Source: a virus
Length of the DNA: 20,393 nt
Virus record (IMG/VR): IMGVR_UViG_3300042555_000162
Location: 1-20,393 of that record
Direction: 5' to 3' (one strand)
Below the pieces are notes generated by a model. It was not told the DNA's origin and ran no database searches. It saw only the letters and a program-made list of their open reading frames with translations. This document shows, in pieces, positions 4,279-5,325 of the stretch (positions are counted from its first letter, which is position 1; every line of letters starts with the position of its first letter). The position numbers were made by a program, and so were the translations under genes.

Positions 4279-4784
4279 GATTATTTGATATACAGAATGG
4301 ACAGGTGACAGCAAGTGAACATTGTTACACTTTAAAGTTCCTTAACAAGATTATGGTAGAATATCCTTTAGATTATTTAAAGGTGTACACATACTTGTTT
4401 TATATGACTTGTCCGAATCCAGATATAAATCCTTTTTTTCACTTTCCTGAAAATGAGAAAGAAGAGGTTATATTAGAAGAAGTGGATGGTGAATTTTCAC
4501 CAGAAGATGATGCTATAGTGTATGCATTACAGAGATGTAAGCAAATGTATGAGACAGAAACATCTAGAGCATATTATGGAATCAAAACAGCTCTTGACAA
4601 TCTAGGAAAAGTATTAGCTACAGAAACTCCTACATTTGGTAGAGATGGATCAGCTGTAGGTATTCTTAGAATAGCAGAAAGATTTGATGCTGTAAGACAA
4701 TCTTATAAAGGAGTGTATAAAGATTTAATGGATGAACAACAGTCTTCTGTAAGAGGAGGACAAGATTTAGCATATGACCAGTAA
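4272..4784 (+). CDS. Hypothetical protein upstream of the packaging genes, 170 aa
   Basis: I cannot assign a family. The protein looks mostly helical: residues 15-50 contain hydrophobic, Tyr-rich helices (LKFLNKIMVEYP, then LKVYTYLFYMTCP), an acidic loop follows (EEVDGEFSPEDD), and the second half (YALQRCKQMYETETSR, then GIKTALDNLGKVL) resembles helical bundles. The C-terminus (about the last 12 residues) is polar and flexible. Its ATG lies 7 nt inside the SET gene. Size, helicity and position ahead of TerL would suit a small terminase-like or scaffold accessory protein, but nothing in the sequence proves that. Its stop is only 5 nt before the tRNA-like RNA. Confidence 0.65.
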   Translation: MVRLFDIQNGQVTASEHCYTLKFLNKIMVEYPLDYLKVYTYLFYMTCPNPDINPFFHFPENEKEEVILEEVDGEFSPEDDAIVYALQRCKQMYETETSRAYYGIKTALDNLGKVLATETPTFGRDGSAVGILRIAERFDAVRQSYKGVYKDLMDEQQSSVRGGQDLAYDQ

Positions 4785-4789
4785 TAAAT

Positions 4790-4956
4790 TGTAGGATGGT
4801 GAAAAAAAGTATCTCAGTATACTTAGGCATACACACCCACTCGTCTCGTGGGCACAGATCATGAAATAGAAAAGTAGTACGGGGTTGACCACCAGCTTGC
4901 AAGTACTATGCTACTTTTTGAATCACTGTATGAAGGTTCGAGTCCTTCTCCTACAG
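4790..4956 (+). ncRNA. Expanded class-II tRNA-like RNA with D-loop and variable-arm inserts
   Basis: The ends form a perfect 7-bp acceptor (TGTAGGA 4790-4796 with TCCTACA 4949-4955), discriminator G 4956. The T-arm is canonical: GAAGG 4932-4936, loop TTCGAGT, CCTTC 4944-4948. T8 and G9 are present. The D-stem GTG 4799-4801 pairs with CAC 4832-4834, as in class-II tRNAs, and GG at 4826-4827 suits G18G19. A hairpin (AAGTAT/ATACTT, 4807-4824) is inserted in the D-loop. The anticodon-like stem CCCAC 4836-4840 / GTGGG 4848-4852 encloses loop TCGTCTC, which lacks U33 and a purine 37. The variable arm (ACAG 4854-4857 / CTGT 4926-4929) carries a long hairpin, 4870-4918. At 167 nt it is about twice the usual tRNA length. 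It may be a degenerate tRNA, a tRNA mimic or a novel RNA. Confidence 0.6.
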
Positions 4957-4980: not shown

Positions 4981-5325
4981 ATGAAAGTAGAACAGATTGC
5001 ACAAGTTGCACATGAAATTAACAAGGCTTATTGTGAAGCTATTGGAGATAATAGCCAAACAAGTTGGGAAGATGCACCACAATGGCAGAAAGAATCAGCT
5101 GTATTAGGTGTTATATTCCATATGGAAAATCCAGATGCAGGTCCTGATGCTAGTCACAATAGTTGGATGAAACAAAAGATAGAAGATGGGTGGAAGTATG
5201 GTCCAACTAAAGACCCTGATAATAAATATCATCCTTGTATCCTACCTTTTGAAATGCTACCTAATGAACAAAAAGCTAAAGACTTTTTATTCCGTCAAGT
5301 AGTTCATAGTTTAAAAAATGCATAG
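4981..5325 (+). CDS. RyR-domain protein
   Basis: Nearly the whole 114 aa matches the RyR domain, named after ryanodine receptors but widespread in bacteria and phages. Diagnostic stretches are VAHEINKAYCEAIGDNSQ (residues 9-26), SWEDAPQWQKESAVLGV (28-44), NPDAGPDASHNSWM (50-63) and the GWKYGP...HPC...LPFE core (70-92), ending in AKDFLFRQVVHSLK. In receptors this domain is a structural repeat; in phages its function is not established, though ligand or protein binding has been proposed. It follows the tRNA-like RNA by 24 nt and has an A-run leader with no Shine-Dalgarno. The next gene begins 2 nt after its stop, so they are coupled. Confidence 0.9.
   Translation: MKVEQIAQVAHEINKAYCEAIGDNSQTSWEDAPQWQKESAVLGVIFHMENPDAGPDASHNSWMKQKIEDGWKYGPTKDPDNKYHPCILPFEMLPNEQKAKDFLFRQVVHSLKNA

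Follow-up and report, generated by a model that had tools for sequence, protein, structure and literature searches.

Comparison of homologues confirms that positions 4790-4956 of the window, our term for the whole stretch of DNA analysed, a 20.4-kb IMG/VR virus record, hold a real RNA that belongs to a family without any Rfam model. We read this RNA as a processed, non-decoding tRNA mimic, the phage branch of an RNA family of Bacteroidota, which is directed at AspRS and is dimeric in phages. This is the reading that we prefer, and taken as a whole it remains tentative. The fold, the family, the pattern of synthetase determinants and the palindrome are established by comparison; dimerisation, processing, AspRS binding and a regulatory consequence are inferred, with confidence falling in that order. 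Family and dimer are well supported, and the engagement of AspRS is an inference. Conserved in crAss-like phages, in large phages and in a portion of one major bacterial phylum, the RNA is seemingly unnamed: it has no Rfam match and no description was found in the literature searched, which included few subscription journals, so that an earlier description is not excluded.

The window encodes proteins of crAss-like phages, among them a terminase (PHROG 6681), a portal and a major head protein. The terminase has ~25% identity to those of the uncultured human-gut phages cr116_1 and cr50_1 and of Flavobacterium psychrophilum phages; from these protein matches and from what is generally known of the group, we presume the phage to be crAss-like. 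The gene upstream of the RNA ends in a stop codon at 4784 and the next one starts at 4981; the two are co-oriented, and the RNA is encoded on the coding strand in the gap between them. No promoter or terminator signal above chance was found for it in the window, so it is probably released from a longer transcript by cutting. The gene directly downstream (4981-5325) is from a family found widely among phages (PHROG 5154 and others), which has more than 80 relatives in IMG/VR and includes one annotated as RyR-domain in a Pectobacterium phage. An intergenic sequence, AGGTTGACTGGAATAGCGTAC..., at L002:2865-2940 (+) recurs in many relatives immediately after the RNA and is possibly a further structured RNA. 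At L003:2303-2430 (+), an insert of ~130 bp separates the upstream gene from the RNA. The insert is missing in the window, where the flanks are 92-99% identical, and its end, ACGTAATAAGTTACAACATTG, is found again upstream of the RNA in other members.

Fold and covariation

The covariance models R1 and R2 match the RNA end to end over 4790-4956. Its parts are as follows.

4790-4956, plus strand: whole tRNA-like RNA, 167 nt, ending in the G73 equivalent; boundaries common to ~102 distinct homologues
4790-4796, plus strand: acceptor 5' strand, 7 bp with 4949-4955; all cells (100%) paired, double changes in 6 of 7 pairs
4799-4801, plus strand: D-stem 5' strand GTG, 3 bp with 4832-4834; G-C/A-U/U-A and U-A/C-G switches
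4807-4824, plus strand: D-loop hairpin AAGTAT(CTCAGT)ATACTT; optional in the family
4826-4827, plus strand: G18 G19 equivalents (D-loop to T-loop contact); invariant columns
4836-4852, plus strand: anticodon-like arm CCCAC-TCGTCTC-GTGGG; 5-bp stem, GUC at 4843-4845, C38 at 4847
4854-4857, plus strand: 5' strand of variable-arm helix V1, pairing with 4926-4929; comparative pairing
4862-4864, plus strand: 5' strand of variable-arm helix V1b, pairing with 4923-4925; 3 of 3 pairs doubly changed
4870-4879, plus strand: 5' strand of the long variable-arm helix V2, pairing with 4909-4918; 7 of 10 pairs doubly changed
4881-4893, plus strand: apical motif GGGGTTGACCACC; near-invariant in phage members, present in many chromosomal members
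4896-4903, plus strand: self-complementary apical sequence CTTGCAAG, the proposed kissing-dimer site; 10 nt in most relatives, GCTTGCAAGC
4932-4948, plus strand: T-arm GAAGG-TTCGAGT-CCTTC; canonical, pairing seen in homologue alignments
4956, plus strand: discriminator G73; G in 101 of 102 distinct members, with the next base C kept in nearly all

The RNA has the cloverleaf of tRNA, with a 7-bp acceptor, D, anticodon and T arms, G18G19 and a TTC loop; the equivalents of U8 and G9 follow the acceptor 5' strand. A sequence-only reading of this stretch had proposed a class-II (Leu/Ser type) tRNA frame. The acceptor, T8/G9, D-stem, 5-bp anticodon-like stem, T-arm and D-loop hairpin are all found where it had placed them, and homologues covary in the cloverleaf, with a core that, by this comparison, has a class-II (Leu-like) frame. 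In the acceptor, U1-A72 and G2-C71 are near-invariant and pairs 3-7 covary. Bacterial tRNA-Leu and class-II tRNAs share with the RNA U8, A14, G18-G19, the GAAATTGGCAGACGC-type 3-bp D-stem, the T-arm, the 5-bp anticodon-like stem and the position of the variable arm. The RNA differs from them in having G73 instead of A73, a GUC loop without fixed U33 and R37, D-loop inserts and a ~70-nt variable arm of three helices. This arm, which had been called long and branched, is indeed long; however, it is not branched, since its three helices (4, 3 and 10 bp) form a linear stack that contains an internal loop and ends in a conserved apex. The 3-bp helix is an addition by RNAalifold, which also predicts a small GG..CC pairing at the apex.

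The D-loop hairpin is present in the window, as had been claimed, but it is optional among homologues. Members without an insert have a D-arm of the tRNA-Leu type (GAAATTGGCAGAC). In others the insert is an 8-20-nt perfect palindrome or a hairpin of 6-7 bp that ends in a UCUCAGU-like loop, the type of the window; a few have another hairpin. Homologues that keep the acceptor and T-arm together with both hairpins, whose absence would have refuted the sequence-only reading, do exist: 37 of the 102 distinct members have the UCUCAGU-type D-loop hairpin and the variable arm.

Folded as a single sequence, the window RNA gives no significant signal (z -1.14), and the evidence has to come from homologues. 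Over 33 diverse sequences, 97.1% of the cells of the named structure are paired and 25 of 34 pairs have changed on both sides. Double-change cells number 240, against 68 ± 8 in shuffles (none of 500 reaches the observed number); sliding the pairing partners leaves only 12-34 and the covariation signal is lost. In the alignment of phage and chromosomal members, 29 of 37 pairs show double changes. The argument that an intact acceptor and T-arm speak against random decay is thereby strengthened, the cloverleaf covarying and GUC and G73 being invariant or nearly so.

ARAGORN found no tRNA in the window, and Rfam gave nothing at the RNA even at E up to 10 (noise only); neither ARAGORN nor the Rfam tRNA model called the tested family members tRNA. 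A tmRNA has similar tRNA-like ends on a longer RNA, but here there is no tmRNA model match (ARAGORN, Rfam) and no tag reading frame or resume region was seen. An intron-containing tRNA was considered and dropped, because the arms pair with nothing taken out and neither inspection by eye nor Rfam revealed a group I signature. Allo-tRNA and tRNA-Sec-like variants are also class-II tRNAs of unusual build from metagenomes; they differ in the lengths of acceptor and T stems (e.g. 9/3, compared with 7/5 here) and they decode, whereas this RNA is a non-decoder by sequence (PMC7609411).

Distribution in phages and in Bacteroidota chromosomes

In IMG/VR the family comprises ~155 contigs and ~102 distinct sequences (103 distinct sequences were parsed, of which one, from L178, was spurious). 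A scan with the apical motif returned at least 119 stretches, nearly all with the full architecture. Additional diverged members came from a scan on another part of the RNA and from four scans in which the palindrome was left unspecified, and the loci of the neighbouring protein gave two relatives with the RNA. The first-look filters of the genome searches may lose members. A covariance model finds one strong copy in each of the phage genomes searched with it. The carriers range from crAss-like phages, as in the window, to a 326-kb phage, and the RNA is often inside tRNA arrays; 73 of 155 loci have an ordinary tRNA within 300 bp, in each case on the strand of the RNA. The TerL of the window is present in only 6 of 23 member-bearing records, some of which are fragments; the RNA therefore very likely crosses phage lineages, up to the 326-kb genome. 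When members from phages and from chromosomes were compared by blastn with isolate phages and plasmids, no homologue came up, and any matches were short, mostly to a tRNA T-arm or D-arm.

A covariance model of the family, a check that had been proposed, was built and searched, and it recovered relatives in both phages and Bacteroidota chromosomes. Of 296 genomes of Bacteroidota, the phylum of a Flavobacterium assembly, 31 match the phage model strongly, one of them through that assembly's own phage-type copy. With the combined phage and chromosomal model, ~40 of 395 Bacteroidota genomes have members, scoring at least 89.6 bits; apparent class-II tRNAs of 76-87 nt score at most 66 bits and are separated from them. 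Copies from phages and from chromosomes fit this single model over their full length, as one family. Two other phyla (200 and 149 genomes, reached via Variovorax and acidobacterial loci) gave no match at E <= 1e-17.

The chromosomal members are 110-195 nt long and sometimes occur two or three in tandem. They are solitary genes, many of them preceded by a TAnnTTTG promoter motif and followed by a terminator-like hairpin. In 23 of the 31 genomes examined, a gene for an Lrp/AsnC-family regulator is divergent from the RNA gene, a placement typical of a regulator and its target; the remaining 8 loci lack it. These regulators are homologues, 48-81% identical to the first. The BatR locus of B. thetaiotaomicron co-occurs with Lrp/AsnC proteins; BatR was considered as a named relative, without sequence comparison.

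The palindromic apex

The tip of the variable arm in phage members consists of a near-invariant GACCAC followed, in most, by GCTTGCAAGC. The alternatives at this place are GCCGGCCGGC, TCCTGCAGGA, GCTGGCCAGC, GCATGCATGC, GCTAGCTAGC, AAGCCGGCTT, GCTCGAGC, GCTCGCGAGC, GCTGCAGC, GTGCGCAC and GCTAGC. The apical palindrome, of 6-10 nt, has thus been rewritten in at least 12 ways and is still self-complementary, without a spacer; in every case in which the palindrome is the best inverted repeat, the spacer is 0. A self-complementary run of at least 8 nt is found in 76 of 94 apical segments and in 6.4% of shuffles, although the 94 include partly overlapping reads of some members and are not all independent. 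As duplexes, the apical sequences have energies of -8 to -24 kcal/mol, and as hairpins, of 0 to -2.6. A 3-bp hairpin formed by the palindrome was dropped as a candidate, because the central four bases stay palindromic and such hairpins are at ~0 kcal/mol.

The mark of a kissing loop, self-complementarity kept by compensatory rewriting with the central bases included, is therefore present, and the symmetric kissing loops of the OLE and GOLLD homomers were argued from the same kind of evidence (PMC12286853). Because the palindrome is rewritten, free of a spacer and more stable as a duplex than as a hairpin, a homodimer is its natural reading. That phage copies of the RNA kiss through the apical palindrome is inferred, with good support, from aligned sequences, and no dimer has been observed. 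The retroviral dimer initiation site is alike in its self-complementary apical loop; it is unrelated, and the present family is a small RNA acting in trans, not a genome. The RNA would be among the rare natural homodimers of RNA in which sequence by itself reveals the contact. The palindrome is not found in chromosomal members, nor in the phage members that have diverged most. GGGTTGACCAC is common to the apex of most longer chromosomal members, and in those read, no palindrome follows it.

Anticodon-like loop and synthetase determinants

The loop TCGTCTC of the window has no U33 and has a pyrimidine at 37, for which reason decoding had been called doubtful. The homologues bear this out. Among the 102 distinct members, position 33 is T in 62, C in 35, A in 4 and G in 1, and position 37 is always a pyrimidine (T in 95, C in 7), so the family fails on the codon-reading features U33 and purine 37. 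GTC, by comparison, is invariant in alignments of members that were found without requiring it. Conditional on GTC, C38 is kept in 100 of 102, G73 in 101 and G2 in all 102; G10 is kept in 69 of 102 and U1-A72 in nearly all. The proposal of a non-decoding tRNA mimic, serving regulation, capture of host tRNA enzymes or processing, thus agrees with a covarying cloverleaf, drifting positions 33 and 37, and solitary chromosomal genes, many with promoter and terminator motifs. It had named no particular enzyme; the palindromic apex, the set of AspRS determinants and the chromosomal relatives come from the comparison of homologues.

The published set for bacterial tRNA-Asp consists of five strong determinants, G73, G34, U35, C36 and C38, along with G1-C72 and G2-C71 (PMC9976931). 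G1-C72 is said to be strictly conserved in bacterial tRNA-Asp. The RNA has the five strong determinants and G2-C71. It differs from tRNA-Asp in its class-II frame, its pyrimidine 37, its U1-A72 in place of G1-C72, and its failure, by sequence, as a decoder; G10 is only partly kept. From these features the RNA would appear to be an AspRS ligand that does not decode, binding and aspartylation being inferred. The invariance of GUC could instead come from pairing with the invariant apical GAC. Both are constant, so comparison cannot decide.

Proposed function and alternatives

In the mechanism that we propose, RNase P and tRNA 3' processing would free the RNA from a longer transcript, and the variable-arm palindromes of two phage copies would kiss to give a homodimer. 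The mature RNA would be bound by AspRS, itself a dimer, and perhaps charged, without reading codons; of this step we are less sure. Such a ligand may tune the supply of aspartyl-tRNA or aspartate/asparagine signalling. The level of the chromosomal gene would be set by the divergent Lrp/AsnC-type regulator according to amino-acid state, and the phage would bring a dimeric version outside this control. The regulatory role is conjecture. A more extended proposal, which we consider doubtful, is a new Bacteroidota class of regulatory RNA in which an AspRS-charged, non-decoding mimic is paired with the Lrp/AsnC-type regulator and senses or buffers the supply of aspartate/asparagine, and which many of their phages have captured and made into a homodimer that sequesters the dimeric synthetase. 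The family offers a direct way to ask whether phages and bacteria employ tRNA mimics aimed at synthetases as regulators. Several points stand against an AspRS mimic. There are no expression or processing data, the first base pair and G10 depart from the Asp set as described above, tRNA-Asp has no long variable arm, such an arm could get in the way of AspRS, and the regulator is not found at every chromosomal locus.

The RNA could act as decoy or sponge, drawing off a host defence nuclease that cuts tRNA or another enzyme that binds it, with the dimer raising affinity and aminoacylation irrelevant. The phage location, the tRNA frame and the invariant anticodon-like loop suit such a role, which is nonetheless unlikely, because the chromosomal relatives adjoin an Lrp/AsnC-type regulator, not defence genes, and a nuclease that cuts the loop needs neither five scattered AspRS determinants nor G2-C71.

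A structural or multimeric RNA, functionally like GOLLD/ROOL, would use the tRNA frame only for processing and stability and would build a higher assembly through kissing loops. The palindromic apex and a second palindrome in the D-loop of some members are in keeping with this, and GOLLD/ROOL share with the family the location in phage tRNA islands, the kissing loops and, for OLE and GOLLD, the switching of palindrome sequence (PMC12286853). However, those RNAs are large and ornate (659 to >800 nt), they have no tRNA frame, and no Rfam covariance match to them was found. Since the palindrome is missing from chromosomal and most diverged phage members, assembly is unlikely to be the core function; GUC, C38 and G73 would also be left unexplained. 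We regard this explanation, too, as improbable.

The acceptor might instead mimic that of another tRNA, making the RNA a ligand of GlnRS or SerRS and not of AspRS. U1-A72, G2-C71 and G73 are determinants of the bacterial Gln acceptor, and G73 with a long variable arm fits Ser (PMC9976931), a fit that also weakens the case for AspRS. We nevertheless find a Gln or Ser mimic very unlikely: GUC and C38 are determinants of neither and are invariant or nearly so, the G3-C70 of Gln is absent, and A72 stands where Ser has C72.

Any palindrome in RNA is also one in DNA, and the apex could be a protein site or a recombination scar with no relation to RNA dimers; its constant place, behind the invariant GACCAC in a loop closed by a covarying RNA helix, and its free sequence with self-complementarity kept leave little credence for this. 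A functional, if aberrant, tRNA-Asp(GUC) that decodes Asp codons in infection despite its long arm is hardly tenable: it would account for the GUC anticodon, G73, the intact acceptor and T-arm and the place in tRNA arrays, but U33 is kept in only 62 of 102 members, 37 is never a purine, tRNA-finding models are silent on the tested members, and many of the phages (17 loci) also carry an ordinary tRNA-Asp, with a CTGTCAC loop (U33, A37) and G73 in nearly all sequences listed.

Other tRNA-framed RNAs in phages

The 'tRNA arrays' of large phages hold tRNA-framed RNAs that tRNA finders miss. A second set in these arrays, at L315:2302-5224 (-), L316:2482-2602 (-), L317:4779-5351 (+), L308:603-1033 (+), L295:5808-5915 (+), L105:145-264 (+) and L278:5274-5435 (-), has near-identical ends, AGTCAGGTGGCGGAATTGGTAGACGC ... 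TACAGGTTCGAATCCTGTCCTGACTA, and wholly different interiors in place of the anticodon and variable arms. At least five lie in one array, none is called as tRNA by ARAGORN, and they look like one tRNA scaffold with swapped cargo. Another RNA, of ~140-150 nt (GGTTCTATAATTGTTTAGGTCGC ... GATGGGTTCGATTCCCATTAGAGCC), is alike in four phages, at L251:3746-3886 (+), L317:6150-6288 (+), L318:4085-4234 (+) and L246:602-742 (+), and has no ARAGORN call. A further long RNA with tRNA-like ends (CTTGGTGTGTCGGAATCGGTAAACGAG...) is near-identical in two phages, at L296:6268-6415 (-) and L303:7047-7194 (+).
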